60,178 bases of DNA from Methanolobus psychrotolerans (GCF_002243045.1 NZ_MBKP01000022.1:1-60178); one strand, 5' to 3'. Counted from the stretch's first letter, positions 384-12,074 are shown. Notes: a model not told the origin generated them from the letters alone. Translations and numbers: made by a program.

Positions 384-1799
384 TTACTTTTTCTCGATAA
401 AATCATCAAAGAAGTCTTCATTCTCTGTGTGAATCGGGATCAATATCTCCGCACTGATCTCCCTGATCATCTCCCTCAGCTCCTCACCATTTGCATGACC
501 GGATGCATGTGTACTTTCATGCCTTATTTTAAAATGTCTTATCCAGTTCTGCTTTCTTTCCTCATCAAGTTCCATTTCATCACAGAAAGGATCACACGAT
601 GACTTTATCCAGAGAGCATTTGAGGGTTTGATATCTGCAAGCTGTCCTATTTCCCACATGCTCATGGAAACAACATAGTCTGCAGGTGAATCTTTAAGCT
701 CATCACAGGTAATAGAATTGGGGCGCTGGATGTATTCACGCTCCCACGTAGCATAATCTTTCTCAACCTGTTCCTGCATCATACCTGTTTTAGTAACCAG
801 ACCCCAGCTTTTTCTTGGAACGAGTATCTTTACTTCATCCAGGCAGAATGGACAATGTGAACCTAGTTTCTCTACAAGATAGGCAAGTTTCAGAGGCACT
901 ACAAACTGTCTTCCGTTTGCTTTTGCAGCATTAAAGATGCTGTTGGTCCTGTCAATATCCCTTATAGGATGCTCAACAAAGACAATCCCTTCTGATTGGG
1001 AGAGCAGGCCAGTGATCTTATCCCTGACATCTGCTTCGCTATCTCTTTCATTGCTGTCGATACGCGTCCCTTCGCACAGTAACCATTTAGGTCTGGCTTC
1101 ACGTGCCTTCTCAACAAATCTCCTGCTGAGATGTCCATTTGAACCATGGAACCTGATATCACCGGTGTAAACAATGTTACCTTCATCAGTATAGATGATA
1201 AATCCGCAGGCACCTGGAAGGGAGTGATCTACAGGGATCATTTCAACTTCAAGACTTCCGATGGATATTCTTCTGCCTGTTTCCATTACACAAAAATCCC
1301 TTTTGTGAATATAATCCTCTTTCTTTCGGTCAACTCTGGAGAGACCACCATTTCTGTTAGTATAGAACCGGAAAGCCTCACAGGCATCAATAAGATCTGA
1401 AAATGTATTGCTTCCGGTGTCCTGAAGACATTCAAGTATTATCTTAGTAGCATCAGTACAGTATATCGGAATATCCCACCTCAGAAAATGAATGTACTGT
1501 GCATGGTCTGCATGGGCATGTGACAGGAACACCGCATCAACTGACCTCTCCTCAGGAAATCTGCCCATATGGCACAAATAATCCTCCCTATAGATCCCTT
1601 CAATATCAGGCAGCAAGCCAAACTCAAAGAAATCCCCAAGAGCCGAACATTTCCTGGGATTCAGGAATTCCGAGAAGAACATCCCATTCTGCTTAAAGCT
1701 CATTCCAAAATCCAGGAATATCCTTGTACCTTTATGCTCAACAAGTATCTTGTTACCACCGATCTCTCCATCTCCACCCAGAACCTTGATCGATACCAT
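384..1799 (-). CDS. beta-CASP family metallo-beta-lactamase (RNase J/CPSF-like)
   Basis: Predicted 471-residue metal-dependent hydrolase, probably a nuclease acting on RNA. The metallo-beta-lactamase signature HAHADH is at about residues 94-99, with later metal-ligand candidates in PVDHSLPGACG and the YTGDIRFHG stretch. The C-terminus carries the beta-CASP features SGHA and PIHTE, which in the family distinguish nucleic-acid enzymes from small-molecule lactamases. There is no KH domain, unlike archaeal CPSF homologues, so an RNase J-like or uncharacterised group is likelier. The second of two adjacent ATGs (1799) was chosen because GGTG lies five bases upstream. It is the last gene of a minus-strand run that includes PIN and CARF proteins. 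The fold is secure; the substrate is inferred. Confidence 0.85.
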   Translation of the reverse strand: MVSIKVLGGDGEIGGNKILVEHKGTRIFLDFGMSFKQNGMFFSEFLNPRKCSALGDFFEFGLLPDIEGIYREDYLCHMGRFPEERSVDAVFLSHAHADHAQYIHFLRWDIPIYCTDATKIILECLQDTGSNTFSDLIDACEAFRFYTNRNGGLSRVDRKKEDYIHKRDFCVMETGRRISIGSLEVEMIPVDHSLPGACGFIIYTDEGNIVYTGDIRFHGSNGHLSRRFVEKAREARPKWLLCEGTRIDSNERDSEADVRDKITGLLSQSEGIVFVEHPIRDIDRTNSIFNAAKANGRQFVVPLKLAYLVEKLGSHCPFCLDEVKILVPRKSWGLVTKTGMMQEQVEKDYATWEREYIQRPNSITCDELKDSPADYVVSMSMWEIGQLADIKPSNALWIKSSCDPFCDEMELDEERKQNWIRHFKIRHESTHASGHANGEELREMIREISAEILIPIHTENEDFFDDFIEKK

Positions 1800-1821
1800 C
1801 ATTGCACCATTATAACATGAT

Positions 1822-2517
1822 CTATTGTTGTCCTATGCCTTTAACGTTGAAAATATCTCTGATATTATTCAGAATGTGATCTGCTTCTGCTTTACAGAGC
1901 TCATGTATGTTGCGATCACCATACAGAGCATGTGCTGTCATCATACCTGCTTTCTTTGCAGGCTCTATATCCCTTCGAAGGCTGTCCCCTACAAAAAGCA
2001 CTTCTTCAGCCCTGAGTCCTGTTCTGGACAAGGCATGATGAAAAACCTTTATGTCCGGTTTGCTTGAACCTGTCATATCAGAGGTGATTATATGATCGAA
2101 CATCTCTGATAAACTCAGTTTTTCAAGACGAGCCCTGGCGTTAGCATGACTGGCATCCGTAACAATGAACAAACCTATTCGACGTTCCCTTAAAAGTGCA
2201 AGCGTCTCAAGAACATGCGGATAGAGCTTGATAGTATCGATTTTAGTATCATGATATATCTTACAGCAATTTTCAAAGGCAAATTCATTATAGACCTTTA
2301 TATCCTTCAGATAATCGCGTATGTTCTCCGGACTCTCAAAGCCATGCTCAGACCTCAGGAAATACATCAGCAGCTCTTCAGGATCTCCTGTGCCAATGTG
2401 ATCAACAATAGCATTACAGGATGCTGTCTTAGCCTCAACAAGATCAAAGAGCGTATTGTCCATATCAAACATTATGCCTTTTATTTTGCGATCTTCAGTT
2501 CCATCAGTCTTCTGCAT
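1822..2517 (-). CDS. HAD superfamily hydrolase
   Basis: A 231-residue haloacid-dehalogenase-fold phosphatase. Motif I is the DMDNT stretch (nucleophile Asp18, acid Asp20), a helical cap follows, then the VTDAS motif II region, a motif III Lys near SKPDIKVF, and motif IV as FVGDSLRRDIEPAKKAG. This arrangement is typical of subfamily I phosphoglycolate-phosphatase/YjjG-like enzymes acting on small phosphorylated metabolites or nucleotides. The start overlaps the 3' end of the upstream PIN gene by 37 bases, which indicates co-transcription and translational coupling. The substrate cannot be read from sequence. A later ATG at 2472, just before the motif I strand, would give a shorter protein and is less likely. 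Confidence 0.85.
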   Translation of the reverse strand: MQKTDGTEDRKIKGIMFDMDNTLFDLVEAKTASCNAIVDHIGTGDPEELLMYFLRSEHGFESPENIRDYLKDIKVYNEFAFENCCKIYHDTKIDTIKLYPHVLETLALLRERRIGLFIVTDASHANARARLEKLSLSEMFDHIITSDMTGSSKPDIKVFHHALSRTGLRAEEVLFVGDSLRRDIEPAKKAGMMTAHALYGDRNIHELCKAEADHILNNIRDIFNVKGIGQQ

Positions 2518-3515
2518 ATTCCAAGTTCCCGTGTAAAAATCTCAAATAATTTCCTGTCCTGGAACATAAGTTTCAGGGAGTCGTCGTCCCTGCCTTTATG
2601 TCCGAACTCACCACAAACGATAACAGAATTACATTTTATGAACCCGTTTACAATCGCAAGCCAGTAAACGAGCTTTACAAACTGGTCAGAACTGCATTCT
2701 CTGGCATCCAGAGTGGAAGGATATGTGAAATGGAAAAAGTCAGGCCCCTTCCCCTCGCACAGATTTGATGCATTTGTATCAGCGGTAAGGAATACAGGAT
2801 AGGCATAATTGTTCTCTTCATCAAAACGACGTATCGCGTTGACAATTATTCTGTCGTTCTTCTCACTGTGGTTTGTTGAAGGTAGCTCGGCCTTGACCTC
2901 CTGGATATATTCCCTGATATAGTGGTATTCCTTCATTGCCACATGAGCAGCTTTTCTGGCCTTTTTCATTTTCCTGTTCTCAAGGTTTTCCAGCAGTTCT
3001 GCATGATAGTGGGCACACTCCTGCATCTCATGTATATGGAAAGGTTTGTACTTGTAATTGACAGAGCTTTCTATCTCGTCATAAACAGTATCAACAATAA
3101 GGTAACGAGGAGCTTTAATGTAACTGGCCTTTGAAGGGAAACCCTGATACAGCATATTGGTGTCAAGGGCAAGATAAACTATCTTACCAAGCTTTTCATA
3201 GGCTTTGAGCATATCTTTGAAATCATCTATATTGTCGTACTGAATGATCTCGCTCAAAAGCATGCAGTACCTTATATCATCAAAGGATGGCAGTTCATTG
3301 ACATAAGTGCTATAATCCGCATATAGCTCTTCAAAATCTTCCTCATCAGACAGAACACGTATCCTGTACCCATCACCCGAGGTCTTTGCCTGTATAAGTT
3401 TAAGGTCAAAAAGCGGGTAATCGACCACAACTGACTGGTCACCAAAAAGGTTCAGCAGTATCTGCAATTCATCTCTCTGGATGACCACACTGTTCTCAAC
3501 CAGTTCACTGTCCAT
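2481..3515 (-). CDS. PIN-domain protein, putative ribonuclease
   Basis: A 344-residue protein with a C-terminal PIN-like nuclease domain. The acidic set is visible: LALDTN (Asp118), VYDEIES (Glu147/149), NDRIIVNAI (Asp221) and FLTADTNA (Asp246), the usual order of PIN metal ligands. The first 110 residues form a separate domain I do not recognise. A lysine-rich helical insert lies between the second and third motifs. The ATG overlaps the end of the CARF-like gene by 11 bases, so the two are almost certainly translated together. In the known family logic (CARF sensor plus PIN, HEPN or nuclease effector) this would be the effector, but here sensor and effector are separate polypeptides. It has no VapB-like antitoxin partner, which argues against an ordinary VapC toxin. 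Confidence 0.75.
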   Translation of the reverse strand: MDSELVENSVVIQRDELQILLNLFGDQSVVVDYPLFDLKLIQAKTSGDGYRIRVLSDEEDFEELYADYSTYVNELPSFDDIRYCMLLSEIIQYDNIDDFKDMLKAYEKLGKIVYLALDTNMLYQGFPSKASYIKAPRYLIVDTVYDEIESSVNYKYKPFHIHEMQECAHYHAELLENLENRKMKKARKAAHVAMKEYHYIREYIQEVKAELPSTNHSEKNDRIIVNAIRRFDEENNYAYPVFLTADTNASNLCEGKGPDFFHFTYPSTLDARECSSDQFVKLVYWLAIVNGFIKCNSVIVCGEFGHKGRDDDSLKLMFQDRKLFEIFTRELGICRRLMELKIAK

Positions 3516-4041
3516 TCATGGCCCTCACAACCTGTTCTTTGAAATCGTTCAACTGCTGTATCTGATACGGTATCATCATGTAGGGTCTGGGAACCGTCTC
3601 TTTGATGGATAGATAGAAAATATGGTCCACATCTGAAAGGTTAATGGGCAGAAGAGTGCCTGCAACCAGTGTCTTTTTTCCAGGAGTGATGTCAATTGCT
3701 ATCACATCACCATCCTTTTTCCTTTTCTTGATCAGACCAAGAATGTGCTGGACCATCTTTACAAAATCAGCATCGAAACTTATCTCACATTCACTCTCGG
3801 AGATAACTTCGTATTTGATGGCCGGAGATATATGGAATTCTTCTGACAGAATAGCCAGACCTCTGACAGTTGCATCTATCTCTTTTAGAAGCTTCTCACT
3901 GGCTTTACCTTCTGCAAAGAGGACTATCTCATCCGGGAAGAACTCTTTTTCACGTAAAACTGCATGGTATGAGTTCAGAACTGCCCACACCGAACGTCCC
4001 AGCATGGTTATATAGACTTTCTTAGGGGAAGATTCCGTCAT
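3505..4041 (-). CDS. CARF-fold protein, candidate cyclic-oligonucleotide sensor
   Basis: A 178-residue single-domain protein with a CARF-type Rossmann layout. A first strand leads into MLGRS (residues 13-17), where CARF proteins have their first ligand loop. Next comes PDEIVLFAEG, then a late strand ending in DITPGKK (117-123) followed by a hydrophobic helix, matching the second CARF ligand loop (Asp-x-Thr-x-Gly-x-Lys). CARF domains bind cyclic oligoadenylates made by type III CRISPR complexes. No CRISPR gene is visible in this window. ATG 4041 is preferred over GTG 4074 because AAGTGATC sits just upstream of it. The gene overlaps the PIN gene downstream and lies 77 bases after the YhaN-like gene. 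The fold assignment is by pattern only; other Rossmann regulators are the main alternative. Confidence 0.65.
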   Translation of the reverse strand: MTESSPKKVYITMLGRSVWAVLNSYHAVLREKEFFPDEIVLFAEGKASEKLLKEIDATVRGLAILSEEFHISPAIKYEVISESECEISFDADFVKMVQHILGLIKKRKKDGDVIAIDITPGKKTLVAGTLLPINLSDVDHIFYLSIKETVPRPYMMIPYQIQQLNDFKEQVVRAMNGQ

Positions 4042-4118
4042 GTGATCACTTAATCCGAAGATGCTCAAATCCACTTATATTGATAGTATTGATATGATGA
4101 TCCTATAAACAAAAACAC

Positions 4119-7100
4119 TCACACGTCCAGCTCAACAACACCTACATCCGGCACAATGCTCCTGAACATCTCAACAGTCCCCGGATGGCAGGTGAAATAG
4201 AGCACCTGATTCGATTGACTAAGTTCATGGATAGAAACGATAGCATTTCTGCTCCTAACAGGATCGAAGTTGACCAGGATATCATCGAATATGATGGGCA
4301 GTGGTTCAGAGTGCTTGCCAAGCTCTTTGATGAAACCAAACCTAAGTGCTAGATAGAGCTGTTCAGCCGTTCCCCGGCTTAGCTCATCAATGTTTTTACG
4401 CTTTCCGCTTTTATCTTCAACAAAGATGTCCGAAGAACCCAAGGGGGAGTATATCCTTTCATATTTCCCGCCAGTGATATTGGAAAAGAAGTTCTGAGCT
4501 TCAGTAATAACAGCCGGCTGTCTTTCTTTCTCATATTTGTCCATGGCCTTTGAGAGAATATGCTGTGCAATTGAATATGTAGCCCACTCTCTGGACTTCT
4601 CATTGATCTCCTCTTTGAGAGTTTCAAGTTCCAGCCGCAGCTTAGAGCCTTCACTGTAACCCTCAAGCTGCCTTATCTGATTTCTGATGCGTCCCTTCTC
4701 ATCGTTCAGGGATTCAAGGGCACTTTCTATTTCACTTATCCTTTCAGCAATTTCAGTTTCCTGTGTCTTCAGCATTTCAGGTTTTGAATTTTTCAGTTCA
4801 TTAATGATCTTAAGATGATCGTCGTTATTTCCGGAAAGTTTCCTCACATGTGATTCTGCGATCTCGTATCCACTTCTTGCCAGGACAATCTCATCCCATA
4901 TCTTTGCGTTCTTAACAAAATCTTCTTCACTACCCACATTTGCTTCATGAAGGAGGGCAGTCATGTCGCCGGAACAGCCAGATAGTTTATCTTCAGCTCC
5001 CCTGAGACTGAAAAGAAGTCTATTATTCTCTGAAACGAGGTTATCGAGCTGATTCTTTTTACTGAGCGTCTTTTCCAGATCCCCGCGGAGAATCTCAAGT
5101 TCAGTATCAGATCCAAGTCCTGTACTCTTTCTTTCACAAGCATCAAGGACAGATTTTATTCTGTTCCCATATAGCTCAATAGAACGGCCGTATATGCCGA
5201 TCTTTTCAGTCAGTTCCTCTGTTTTATCCTGGATCTCATAGCAGCTTTTGATACCTGCAAATATATCAATAATACTTTCAGGTGTCATCTCAGAGGAGAG
5301 GTCGTACTTTGCAAGCCATTCGTGCCACTTTTCCAATACCACGCCTCTTTCTGCTTCCTTTTCCTTGAGATAAGCATCAAGCACTTCTAACTGCTTTTCA
5401 AGATCTTCACGATCTCTTTTCACCTGCTCAGCCTTACCAGATTTGGCATACTCAGCATCGGCCTCATCACGCAACTTTATAACAGCCTGGTCAAGAGAAC
5501 GCTCCGACGCATCATAGTTACAAATTTCAAGGAGTTTCTTTGAATCCTCTTCAAACTCACCTATGGATATCTCACATGAAAGTATCTGAGAATTAAGCTC
5601 TGCTATAACAGCCTGTCTGTCCTTTGCTTCTCTAATAAGGGCAAGCTTATCATGAACATTCTCAGGCACTATATCAGCATCCAGGTTGCATGAAGTAAGC
5701 CAGTTCTTCCATTCATTTTTGGCTTTTCGAGAAGTAGATCTCATCTCACTCTGTTCTGTTTCAAGCTGAGCATACTTTTCTTTTGATGCAGCCCTGTCCT
5801 TTTCAAGTTCCTTCCTCTGCAAGGTGAGCTCTGAAACAGACTTAAGGCTAAGAGCGTATTCCTTAAGCTCGTCATATCTGTCCTCAAGCACAGATATCTC
5901 AGGTATGTCTTCAAAACCACATGAACTAGCATCTTTCATAATCTTTTCCTTAATGGCCAGGATATCATTCTCTATCTGTTCCTTTGCATTGCCAGATCGA
6001 GCAGAACCTGTGTTGTGCACAGGAAGATGTGTATTCTTAGCAGAGTTCTTCACAGATACTGAATAGACCACCGCTATAATGAACATCCCTGCACATGCGA
6101 TAATGCCTCCCTGTAGGTTATCGTAGACATAGCCGGTTGCAAGGGCCGCAATACCTATTATCCCAAAAGCTCCTGCCGGCCACATGGGCATACGCTGGCC
6201 AACTGCAACAGGTTTCTGCGTTATCATAGAAGCAAACGTCTCATCCCTCTCCAAAGACCTGAGCTCCAGCTCCTTTTCCTTAAGAGATGGGTATCGTGCC
6301 CTAAGGTTCTTCAAACAAGCAAGCATCTCACGGTTTTTGTTTTCAGGGACCTGTACATCTATAGCACTGATCTTAGAATTGATACCATTGATACTATGAC
6401 CTATCTTCTCAATTTCACTTTTCGACCATTCAAGCTGTGTTTCAAGTTTATGGATGTTTAATTCCGTCTCCTTTAAGGTAGATATTATGGAATTTAAGTG
6501 GCCTTTCAGACTGCCGGACAGATCAAAGCTTTCCAGCATGTTTTCATCCCACTCCTTGCCAATATCCTGCAATACTTGAGCAAGCTCTTTCTCCTTATTA
6601 TCCAGTTTTATCTTATCAGAACTTACTCTCTCAATATTTTCTTTATAACCTGCGACCCTGTCTGCTATATTCAGGATTGAAGGCCTTTGTTCCAGTAACG
6701 CTCCAGAAATGTTTTCCGGGCCCTGGCTTTTGCTTGAAATGGAATCTCTGACAAACTCGATTCTCTGGCATAGCTCCGTGATCTCACCATCAATGCTCTG
6801 TAGCTCACCATGGCGTTTGCGTACACCATCAATTGCAGGTATCGACCTGTCAAAATTATTCAGTTTCTCTTCATCCCAGTCCGGTCCAAGTTCATTAAGT
6901 TTTGCCTCAAGTCTTTTCTTTTCAGCCTTTAATGAGGACTTCAGCTTTGGAAGTTCCTCTCTTTCTGCGTTGTATTTCTCGATCCCGTTACCAAGTTCAA
7001 ATATAATGTCCTTCCGGGCCAGAAGGAGTTCATCTATCTCAATGCTGCTTTGTTCCTCACTGTTCCTTTCAATAGAATTTTTGAGATCCTCAATACTTTC

Positions 7101-7955
7101 ATCAAGAATCTGGATCTTCTCCCTGATGCTGTTGTATCTGTTTAATCCGTTCTCAGGAAAACTGTCGATCAATGGAAGCTCTTCAAGTTTACTGCTATGG
7201 ATCTGAAGGTCCACCCAGTCGTCCCAGACTGACAAAAGGGCCTTAATATGTTCCTGATCTTTCAGGAGAGCTGACTTCTCATCCTTAAGGTCAGCTATCT
7301 CTTTTTCTTTTCTCCTGATATCGCTGTGGAGCTGATCATATACATGCTGCCCGTCTTCAATTTCCTTTATCTGCGTCTCTAGTTCCTTTATTTGATTGAA
7401 AAGATCATTTATTGGTGGCTTTCTCCCGGATGGTTTGAATAAAGCTCCTTTCTTATTATCAAATAAATCGTTTATTTCCGGGATAGAGACTGCACCGATG
7501 CCAGTTCCTGCACTGTATAGTTTCCCACTGACGGAATTGCCGTTCAGTTTATTGAAATCCTGCAGTTCGTCCAGACCAAAGGCATAAACATTCTCAAAGA
7601 CATCCTTGTCTGCACTACCAAGTATTTTCCGGAGTTCTTCTTCTCCTTTAAAAGTACCATCCGGGAGATACAGTTTCAACTCCTTGCTTACGTACCTTTC
7701 AATCGTATAACTGTCCCCGTCAGTTGTATTTATCAACAGCCTGCCACCATGGAGACCCCCGTTAAAAGGCGGATATTGATTATGATTACTTCTTTTGTTG
7801 GGAAAATCGAAAAACATTCTTCGGATGAATGAGAGCAAAGTAGACTTCCCTGCTTCGTTCTTACCATACAGTACGGTTAGACCTTCGCCTAAGTCTTGGA
7901 TTGGAAAATCATTGAACTTACCAAAACCGTCTATGTTCAGATCAGTTATTCTCAT
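4119..7955 (-). CDS. YhaN/SbcC-like AAA ATPase with internal membrane segments
   Basis: A 1278-residue SMC/Rad50-like ATPase. The N-terminus has Walker A GKNEAGKST (residues 31-39). The C-terminus has an ABC-type signature ELSRGTAEQLYLALR (about 1190) and Walker B PIIFDDILVNFD (about 1220). Long coiled coils fill the middle. Two hydrophobic segments lie close together at about 588-635, roughly where Rad50 has its zinc hook; no CxxC hook is seen. Such a membrane hairpin is a feature of the YhaN group rather than Rad50, and suggests the coiled-coil tip is membrane-anchored. It overlaps the Mre11-like gene by 14 bases, so the two probably form a nuclease-ATPase complex for DNA end processing. 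SD GGAG is seven bases before the ATG. Confidence 0.85.
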   Translation of the reverse strand: MRITDLNIDGFGKFNDFPIQDLGEGLTVLYGKNEAGKSTLLSFIRRMFFDFPNKRSNHNQYPPFNGGLHGGRLLINTTDGDSYTIERYVSKELKLYLPDGTFKGEEELRKILGSADKDVFENVYAFGLDELQDFNKLNGNSVSGKLYSAGTGIGAVSIPEINDLFDNKKGALFKPSGRKPPINDLFNQIKELETQIKEIEDGQHVYDQLHSDIRRKEKEIADLKDEKSALLKDQEHIKALLSVWDDWVDLQIHSSKLEELPLIDSFPENGLNRYNSIREKIQILDESIEDLKNSIERNSEEQSSIEIDELLLARKDIIFELGNGIEKYNAEREELPKLKSSLKAEKKRLEAKLNELGPDWDEEKLNNFDRSIPAIDGVRKRHGELQSIDGEITELCQRIEFVRDSISSKSQGPENISGALLEQRPSILNIADRVAGYKENIERVSSDKIKLDNKEKELAQVLQDIGKEWDENMLESFDLSGSLKGHLNSIISTLKETELNIHKLETQLEWSKSEIEKIGHSINGINSKISAIDVQVPENKNREMLACLKNLRARYPSLKEKELELRSLERDETFASMITQKPVAVGQRMPMWPAGAFGIIGIAALATGYVYDNLQGGIIACAGMFIIAVVYSVSVKNSAKNTHLPVHNTGSARSGNAKEQIENDILAIKEKIMKDASSCGFEDIPEISVLEDRYDELKEYALSLKSVSELTLQRKELEKDRAASKEKYAQLETEQSEMRSTSRKAKNEWKNWLTSCNLDADIVPENVHDKLALIREAKDRQAVIAELNSQILSCEISIGEFEEDSKKLLEICNYDASERSLDQAVIKLRDEADAEYAKSGKAEQVKRDREDLEKQLEVLDAYLKEKEAERGVVLEKWHEWLAKYDLSSEMTPESIIDIFAGIKSCYEIQDKTEELTEKIGIYGRSIELYGNRIKSVLDACERKSTGLGSDTELEILRGDLEKTLSKKNQLDNLVSENNRLLFSLRGAEDKLSGCSGDMTALLHEANVGSEEDFVKNAKIWDEIVLARSGYEIAESHVRKLSGNNDDHLKIINELKNSKPEMLKTQETEIAERISEIESALESLNDEKGRIRNQIRQLEGYSEGSKLRLELETLKEEINEKSREWATYSIAQHILSKAMDKYEKERQPAVITEAQNFFSNITGGKYERIYSPLGSSDIFVEDKSGKRKNIDELSRGTAEQLYLALRFGFIKELGKHSEPLPIIFDDILVNFDPVRSRNAIVSIHELSQSNQVLYFTCHPGTVEMFRSIVPDVGVVELDV

Positions 7956-9252
7956 GCTCAGTCTCCGGAATAAGTTTGTCCAGAAGCAGCTCTTCTGCAG
8001 TCTTTAGGATCCTTGTCCTCTCTTCTTCATCAAGAGACTTTAGTATGTGTCTTATTTTTCCTTTTCCAAAAAGATCATGTAAAGAACCGTCGAGTTCCAT
8101 TAGGCAATCACTGTCAGAACATATCTGGTCGGTTATGCTCAAAAGATCAGAGATGAAGTCCTGTCTGCTTAAAAGGCCTGCGCGCTCAAAGGGAAAAGAT
8201 GTTTCGTCCTTCAGCCGTTCTAACCAAACAGAACCAGGCCCCACATCATAGTTATCCCTTAAGTGTTGAACAAGATCGGGCAAAAAGCCATCTTTTATCA
8301 GAAGCCTTTTCAATGGGCTTCGGCCTGTGAGAACGAATCTGCAAATTAAATGCCTGCCATCTGAGATCTCAAAGAGCTTATCCATCTTTTCTTCAAGCTG
8401 TTCTATAAGATCAGCCTCTGTTTCCAATTCGCTGACAGATAACTCTTCAACACACCATCGAACAGAATCAACCGGGACAAAATCGACATTTGTGTTACCT
8501 TTTTTGTCTACTTCCACTACCATACATCCCCTCTCTCCCGGTTCACCCGGGTCTCTGCCCTGTGGATTACCGGAATAGACTATGAAAGGTTCTGTTTCGA
8601 CGAACTGCGGTTGATGTATGTGCCCAAGGGCCCAATAATCATAATTTGTTTCTTTAAGGTCCTGGACACTGCAGGGTGCATAAGGATAATGCCCTTCTGC
8701 TGAGCCAACCGTACAATGAAGCATGCCTATTGCATATGGAGAATCGGGATCTTTTTTCTGAAAACCTTTTGCGAGGTTTTCTTTGATGTGTGTTGTCCGA
8801 TAACTAATCCCGCTGATATTTGCTATCACTCTGCCATTCCTGCTAACTGAAAAGGTTTCTACATAATCACCACTGAATACTTTCACATTATCGGGCCATT
8901 CAAGACTTGCAGACCATCCATTAAGAGGATCATGATTCCCATGTGTGATGTATGTTGCAATACCTGCATCAGATAGTCTTTTAAGACCATCAAGGAATTT
9001 CAGCTGGGCATAAAGGCTTTTGTCAGCGCTGTCGTAAATATCGCCAGCTATCAGAAGAAAGTCTGCATTTTTCTCGATGCAAAGGTCAATGATCTTATTG
9101 TAGGCTGCAAACGTAGCCTTTGTCATTACATCACTTAACAGGGGATTGATATCAGAAAGTCCATGGAAAGAACTGTCCAGGTGAAGGTCTGCTGTATGCA
9201 CAAAGATAAAATCAGTATCATTATTGCTTTTTGATCTTTTTTTAGCAGCCAT
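7942..9252 (-). CDS. Mre11/YhaO-like metallophosphoesterase, DNA exonuclease
   Basis: A 436-residue calcineurin-like phosphoesterase, the expected nuclease partner of the YhaN-like ATPase encoded next to it. Metal-binding motifs appear in order: TADLHLD (Asp22, His24), AGDIYD, THGNHD, and GHIH after the LHCTVG stretch. The C-terminal 150 residues are the accessory region typical of the YhaO/SbcD group. By family knowledge it would cut DNA ends in an ATP-dependent, partner-controlled way. It is the promoter-proximal gene of the six-gene minus-strand run. No strong Shine-Dalgarno precedes the ATG; a TATA-like box lies about 50 bases upstream. Whether it replaces or supplements a canonical Mre11-Rad50 elsewhere in the genome cannot be seen. 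Confidence 0.87.
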   Translation of the reverse strand: MAAKKRSKSNNDTDFIFVHTADLHLDSSFHGLSDINPLLSDVMTKATFAAYNKIIDLCIEKNADFLLIAGDIYDSADKSLYAQLKFLDGLKRLSDAGIATYITHGNHDPLNGWSASLEWPDNVKVFSGDYVETFSVSRNGRVIANISGISYRTTHIKENLAKGFQKKDPDSPYAIGMLHCTVGSAEGHYPYAPCSVQDLKETNYDYWALGHIHQPQFVETEPFIVYSGNPQGRDPGEPGERGCMVVEVDKKGNTNVDFVPVDSVRWCVEELSVSELETEADLIEQLEEKMDKLFEISDGRHLICRFVLTGRSPLKRLLIKDGFLPDLVQHLRDNYDVGPGSVWLERLKDETSFPFERAGLLSRQDFISDLLSITDQICSDSDCLMELDGSLHDLFGKGKIRHILKSLDEEERTRILKTAEELLLDKLIPETEHENN

Positions 9253-11553: not shown

Positions 11554-12074
11554 TTGGTTTTGGTAAGTATATATAGTTACATATTATGAGGACCTATATT
11601 TCACTATGAACTGTCCGGTATAAGAGCTCCAACCACAAAAAGAACGGTAAAATAGGTGAACACCAACGCTACAAATGCCATCATTGCGGATATAACTATA
11701 CAGTCTGGATAAAATCAACAGCTAGTTCTAATTATGTTAAAAGACAGGCTTTGGAACTCTATCTCGACGGATTAGGATTTCGCTCAATTGGAAGGTTTTT
11801 GGGAGTAAGTCATGACCGATCACTGGAGGGCATATGCAGAGTTTCTTCCAGCGGCTATACATACTCAATCCAAAGCTGAAACATATACGTTGGAAGGATA
11901 CAATAGCATATTTAGGCATTTCCTGGCAAGATTGAGAAAAAAGTCAAAGTGTTATACGAAGAGTCTTGAAATGGTGAAGTACTCTGTTCTTCTTTTGATG
12001 AAATATAGAAATAAAGAGTTCACTATATTGAGTTTATAATGCCAAGAAACATATACCACTGTACTTAAAACCAA
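11554..12074 (+). mobile_element. Decayed IS1-family element
   Basis: Imperfect terminal inverted repeats enclose the transposase remnant. TTGGTTTTGGTAAGTA at 11554-11569 faces TACTTAAAACCAA at 12062-12074 (reverse complement TTGGTTTTAAGTA), differing by a small insertion. The enclosed 521 bp is shorter than an intact IS1-type element because of an internal deletion. I see no clear target-site duplication. The right end lies 20 bases before the guanine deaminase start, so the element may now sit in that gene's promoter. Confidence 0.6.
11606..12039 (+). pseudogene. IS1-type transposase remnant (InsA and InsB fragments)
   Basis: The 5' part encodes a zinc-finger N-terminus like InsA: MNCP at the start, then, after a frameshift near 11621, KKNGK, HQRYKCHHCGYNYT and a helix-turn-helix ending FRSIGRFLGVSH. 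Directly after, in another frame, comes the C-terminal part of the InsB catalytic domain: DHWRAYAEFLP, HTQSKAETYTLEGYNS and FRHFLARLRRK-like FRHFLARLRKKSKCY. The middle, including the first catalytic acidic residues, is deleted. At least one frameshift plus the deletion makes it non-functional. Confidence 0.8.

Follow-up and report, generated by a model that had tools for sequence, protein, structure and literature searches.

CARF domains are usually read as the receivers of the alarm molecules that Cas10 makes in CRISPR systems, and a CARF gene that is joined to a nuclease gene away from CRISPR raises the question of which signal it answers and with which partners it works. Such a pair is encoded in Methanolobus psychrotolerans on the stretch analysed here (60,178 nucleotides, hereafter the window), which is an entire contig of a 3.16-Mb assembly rated complete (genome G000). 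No cas gene adjoins the locus, as had been claimed, and the genome also lacks a detectable Cas10. The genes concerned, given in order of transcription, are as follows:

7942-9252, minus strand: Mre11/SbcD-like nuclease, 436 aa (Metallophos, 4.9e-16)
4119-7955, minus strand: YhaN-like SMC/AAA_27 ATPase, 1278 aa (AAA_27, 1.8e-22)
4042-4118, minus strand: gap of 77 nt between the YhaN stop and the CARF start, the boundary of two modules
3505-4041, minus strand: CARF_m1 sensor, 178 aa (PADLOC PDLC01971, 3e-42)
2481-3515, minus strand: PIN nuclease, 344 aa (PIN_4, PF13638, 7.4e-5)
1822-2517, minus strand: HAD phosphatase, 231 aa (HAD_2, 2.8e-33)
384-1802, minus strand: beta-CASP metallo-beta-lactamase (MBL), RNase J-like, 472 aa (Lactamase_B_2, 2e-12; RMMBL, 1.9e-5)

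The original prediction had named the Mre11-like, YhaN-like, CARF and PIN genes, and all four are present where it placed them. The interval that it flagged (2481-9252) omits the HAD and RNase J-like genes, which are the conserved partners. The Mre11-like and YhaN-like genes overlap by 14 nt, the CARF and PIN genes by 11 nt (an overlap already predicted), and the PIN and HAD genes by 37 nt, while the RNase J-like gene starts 19 nt past the HAD gene. A separate promoter may lie in the 77-nt gap, and an alternative upstream GTG start of the CARF gene, at 4074, would give a protein of 189 aa. Upstream of the operon, an AT-rich stretch holds a 75-aa frame (11812-12039) which, by eye, looks like a transposase remnant.

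The proposed identity of the 178-aa protein is borne out by its match to the PADLOC profile CARF_m1, the Pfam CRISPR-CARF models giving sub-threshold matches only, and the two motifs on which the proposal relied are located at residues 13-17 (MLGRS) and 117-123 (DITPGKK). An AlphaFold model built from four input sequences only, with a moderate pLDDT of 61.9, is informative about the fold and not about detail; in a structure search, the majority of its top matches were CARF or ring-nuclease chains, the first being Sis0811 (Z 10.8), so that the protein, as modelled, has a CARF-type Rossmann fold. When the family profile is aligned with Sso2081, S17 corresponds to Ser11, and K122/K123 to Arg105/Lys106, residues that are required in Sso2081 for the recognition or cleavage of cA4 (PMC10018336). 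Within the orphan clade of CARF proteins to which that of the window belongs, S17 is kept in 45 of 46 sequences, and both K123 and a basic residue (R/K) at position 122 in 46 of 46. A basic residue following strand 4 has been used as the criterion for a CARF ligand pocket (PMC4012209), and it is present in this clade. The ligand bound in this pocket is most likely a small cyclic nucleotide or oligonucleotide.

The PIN nuclease, also predicted beforehand, stands on a PIN_4 match above the gathering score and on the fused PADLOC profile CARF_m1--CARF_PIN (PDLC01973), whose PIN half matches the window protein at 3.7e-13. Residues D118, E147, D221 and D246 are invariant in the 59 aligned homologues. 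The AlphaFold model of this protein (pLDDT 34) was too low in confidence for a fold search, and comparison of its sequence with solved PIN chains matched none of them. On the fused profile, the CARF and PIN proteins of the window cover successive parts (2-151 and 215-442), and the pair therefore represents a split form of a single sensor-nuclease.

How far this arrangement is conserved was surveyed in the surroundings of CARF_m1 genes from the class, together with 393 genomes of the phylum, several of the contigs ending near the cassette. A HAD gene lies next to the PIN gene in 44 of 61 CARF-PIN pairs, and in 33 of these loci the HAD active-site motif begins exactly 14 nt past the PIN stop. 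The conserved unit is thus CARF-PIN-HAD, with gene order and overlap maintained, and HAD-linked cassettes occur in families f1, f2, f9, f10, f17 and f27. Clades in the CARF-PIN tree track families f9, f27, f10, f17 and f1; this tree, rooted at the midpoint with no outgroup, is compatible with either a CRISPR-linked or a CRISPR-free ancestral form. The dN/dS values of CARF, PIN, HAD and MBL (0.05-0.14) indicate that the cassette is under purifying selection. In the genus, its distribution is patchy (4 of 27 genomes). The copies of f9 and f27 are solitary: within about 10 kb, the partner and defence genes that were tested for are all lacking. Two loci have the look of a former cassette: G010 keeps a C-terminal HAD-like fragment (L054, 3675-4016) directly beside a complete RNase J-like gene, and G017 has a truncated RNase J-like gene (L056, 5858-6370). 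A viral origin was considered and rejected, as scans of viral contigs with the CARF and PIN alignments returned no relative. A literature search found no work naming CARF-PIN or an orphan CARF, and the 2020 classification of CARF proteins, which may describe parts of this family, lay outside that search.

Two further genes recur beside the cassette. The first encodes the RNase J-like protein, which in the window carries the MBL motifs HAHADH, SGHA and PIHT as well as an RMMBL domain, features which place it in the RNase J-like group. Its score against the RNase J family TIGR00649 (4.3e-25) is 88 bits versus a cut-off of 400, and by these profiles it is a divergent relative of RNase J and not RNase J proper. 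The MBL gene is found immediately downstream of the cassette in four genomes of f1, that of the window included, as a fragment downstream of it in one genome of f2, immediately upstream in f17 (five genomes), and farther upstream in f10. The second is a gene for a CARF3-HTH regulator, adjacent to the cassette or close to it in ten genomes and recurrent in families f1, f10 and f17; any copy belonging to the window would have to lie past the contig end. In G006, an ARPP-1 gene (L055, 3718-4827; PF20208, 5.4e-89) is encoded near RNase J-like and CARF3-HTH genes, and a gene of similar appearance follows the cassette at L009.

A different picture emerges for the two genes upstream of the gap. The best curated score of the Mre11-like protein is against SbcD (63.4 bits, 2.7e-17, versus a cut-off of 77.65), and the other curated Mre11, SbcD and Rad50 models fall far below theirs. 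By these scores the window pair is related to the Mre11-Rad50/SbcCD families without being a member of them. The YhaN-like protein may be membrane-anchored, a description that goes back to two hydrophobic stretches read by eye. The original prediction had the CARF-PIN pair embedded in a YhaN/Mre11 operon and took conservation of that neighbourhood as one of its checks. The adjacency holds in the window and recurs in G348, a genome of the unrelated family f10, but it is absent beside nearly all other copies, so the neighbourhood is mostly, though not wholly, unconserved. Apart from G348, the genomes in which Mre11-YhaN accompanies the cassette are all of the Methanolobus type, the other HAD-linked cassettes being devoid of Mre11 with one exception, and it also occurs away from any CARF-PIN pair in four genomes. 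Mre11-YhaN is consequently not in the conserved core.

Nevertheless, some observations favour a looser link between the two modules. Within the genus, Mre11 is present in three of the four cassette carriers and in none of the 23 other genomes (Fisher p 0.001, 27 genomes), and this confinement favours a link. An accidental adjacency confined to Methanolobus was considered and dropped on account of the independent copy in G348, in which a diverged Mre11-YhaN pair (27-28% identity) is flanked by the RNase J-like gene on one side and by CARF on the other. In six f10 relatives of G348, the same stretch holds McrC just upstream of CARF, overlapping or abutting it. Between G000 and G020, dS is 0.36-0.42 for Mre11-YhaN versus 1.05-1.69 for CARF, PIN, HAD and MBL, which indicates that Mre11-YhaN has a history separate from that of the cassette and has been exchanged independently. 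The YhaN and CARF blocks of G001 are split by 4.4 kb of inserted DNA that encodes a helicase and a further CARF3-HTH protein. Taken over about eight loci, these arrangements suggest that the position upstream of CARF may be a slot for interchangeable DNA-processing machines, either Mre11-YhaN or McrBC.

The next question is where a ligand could come from. Cas10 was found in 7 of 40 genomes with a HAD-linked cassette and in 62 of the 353 genomes without one (odds ratio 0.996, p 1.0, a p-value from 393 related genomes that serves only as a guide), and is thus statistically independent of the cassette. Searches of G000, G001, G018, G020 and G037 with three Cas10 models gave no convincing match, those of TIGR02578 in the first three covering only the HD region of proteins of 220-240 aa. 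The same five genomes yielded no mCpol and no CD-NTase. A CD-NTase had been considered as the signal source; a weak SMODS match appears in nine of nine genomes, but among the proteins that were read it is of the CCA-adding-enzyme type: the matching proteins are CCA-adding enzymes by Pfam in two genomes, and those of G000, G001 and G037 share their length and N-terminal motif. The absence of Cas10, mCpol and CD-NTase from the five genomes leaves the proposed ligand without a known source. By these searches, the window genome has neither the Cas10 locus that defines a type III effector nor the synthase (CD-NTase or mCpol) that defines CBASS or Panoptes.

Relatives of the pair are nevertheless found in CRISPR surroundings. 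A diverged CARF-PIN clade without HAD is encoded inside or near type III loci (L013, L042, L046-L048), and at L103 a pair shares its contig with Cas10; seven genomes carry such type III-linked pairs. In G150, a pair that falls on the same side of the tree as the window's adjoins a III-D locus (L045). These relatives connect the family with signalling by cyclic oligonucleotides. Besides the pair, the G150 locus encodes a CARF4-PDDEXK protein, two CARF8-TM proteins and a reverse transcriptase (L045, 1029-7343), and is a cluster of several ligand-gated effectors. G148 carries both an orphan and a type III CARF-PIN pair, and its mCpol (L106, 5983-6435; PF18182, 1.8e-35) is the sole one over the cut-off among nine genomes. 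A further group, haloarchaeal in appearance, has CARF-PIN pairs with altered pocket residues and with neither HAD nor Cas10. In the pairs with neither HAD nor Cas10 at L104, L105 and L133-L137, the conserved G15 and S17 have been lost from the pocket, and these CARF proteins may bind a different ligand; at L104, a Cas12f/TnpB-like gene lies upstream of the pair.

We consider that there is about an even chance that CARF-PIN-HAD, with the RNase J-like enzyme that usually joins it in this lineage, constitutes a ligand-gated RNA-degradation cassette which is independent of type III CRISPR. It probably answers an unknown signal, since most carriers have no known enzyme for making alarm molecules. 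The original prediction had supposed cyclic-nucleotide control and a joint function of the gene set, and both are kept here as an inference. The CARF protein would dimerise, bind a small cyclic nucleotide or oligonucleotide in its pocket and, through contact with the separately encoded PIN protein, switch on RNA cleavage, so that the split pair would act like the fused forms, in which ligand binding by the CARF dimer activates the nuclease. Because both the serine and the lysine of ring nucleases persist in the pocket, CARF may also destroy its own ligand. RNA cut by PIN would be degraded by the RNase J-like enzyme, whereas HAD would dephosphorylate RNA products and ends or free nucleotides, and the outcome would be a starved virus or an arrested cell, that is, presumably defence rather than housekeeping. 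Mre11-YhaN in this lineage, and McrBC in others, could serve as a pluggable DNA-processing first line. A broader and distinctly more tentative extension is that euryarchaea possess a cyclic-oligonucleotide pathway outside CRISPR, CBASS and mCpol, in which a new synthase would signal to CARF-PIN-HAD behind an exchangeable DNA-nuclease first line.

Part of the same evidence could be read as the mark of a vertically inherited, regulated cassette for RNA or nucleotide turnover with no role in defence. The clades that follow families f9, f27, f10, f17 and f1 and the strong purifying selection are both to be expected of such a cassette, and so are the isolated copies of f9 and f27, which suit defence equally well. 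However, the patchy presence in the genus, the HAD remnant of G010 and the truncated MBL of G017, the exchange of the neighbouring DNA-nuclease modules and the location of relatives in CRISPR loci all speak against it, and we regard housekeeping as unlikely.

Still less probable is that the pair is an orphan type III effector, answering a cyclic oligoadenylate that Cas10 supplies in trans from strain-variable CRISPR loci or mobile elements. Diverged pairs do act as type III effectors in seven genomes, the pair of G150 that adjoins a III-D locus is nested near the window's clade, and the pocket residues are identical. Nevertheless, Cas10 is missing from 33 of the 40 genomes with a HAD-linked cassette, which is the background rate, and G001, a single-contig genome, has none. 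The cassette tracks families in the tree, unlike the effectors of mobile CRISPR loci, and the type III versions lack HAD. Just as improbable is an RtcR-like ligand, namely tRNA halves with cyclic phosphate ends, for even though such fragments are bound by the CARF of RtcR (PMC7790460), would suit the RNA-type enzymes of the cassette and would need no dedicated synthase, in most CARFs of the RtcR family no positive residue follows strand 4 (PMC4012209), while the window clade is invariably basic at positions 122 and 123, like the ring nucleases that bind cA4, and the window CARF has no AAA+/HTH fusion, which sets it outside the RtcR type.

With a ligand-gated cassette as the preferred reading, the locus matters because strong selection maintains a CARF and a nuclease together, with the ligand pocket intact, in several families of archaea, and in most cases beside one and the same phosphatase. 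As most of the genomes that carry it lack a known ligand maker, sensing by orphan CARF proteins becomes testable with a defined protein pair, and the conserved locus is a place in which to seek a new signal synthase.

Several known systems resemble this cassette in part. The closest by profile is CARF_m1--CARF_PIN of PADLOC, since both window proteins match the fused profile; in the window, however, there are two genes, a constant HAD partner and no Cas10. SiRe_0806 likewise combines a PIN domain with an N-terminal domain resembling CARF; its structure is known in complex with cA4 (PDB 9jxx; apo form 9jxw), and it matches the window CARF in structure (Z 7.5-7.8) and, weakly, the CARF_m1 profile in sequence, but it is a single polypeptide from Sulfolobus. 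In Chp, a CARF-HAD phosphatase effector of type III CRISPR that depletes ATP and IMP (PMC12715507), a CARF sensor is also coupled to a HAD phosphatase, and by analogy the HAD protein of the window may act on nucleotides; Chp is, in contrast, a single membrane protein of CRISPR loci, whereas the window HAD is encoded separately, beside PIN and without Cas10. In the CoCoNuT/McrBC superoperons, CARF genes share operons with restriction genes of the McrBC type, an association for which a layered defence has been proposed (PMC11090510), and this recalls the McrC that abuts CARF in f10, but the CARFs described in the accessible part of that work are mostly RtcR-like or fused to nucleases, and a CARF-PIN-HAD unit is not reported there. 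Finally, the ring nuclease Crn1/Sso2081 shares with the window CARF a pocket in which the catalytic Ser and Lys positions are aligned, but it is a stand-alone off-switch with no partner nuclease for which to sense.
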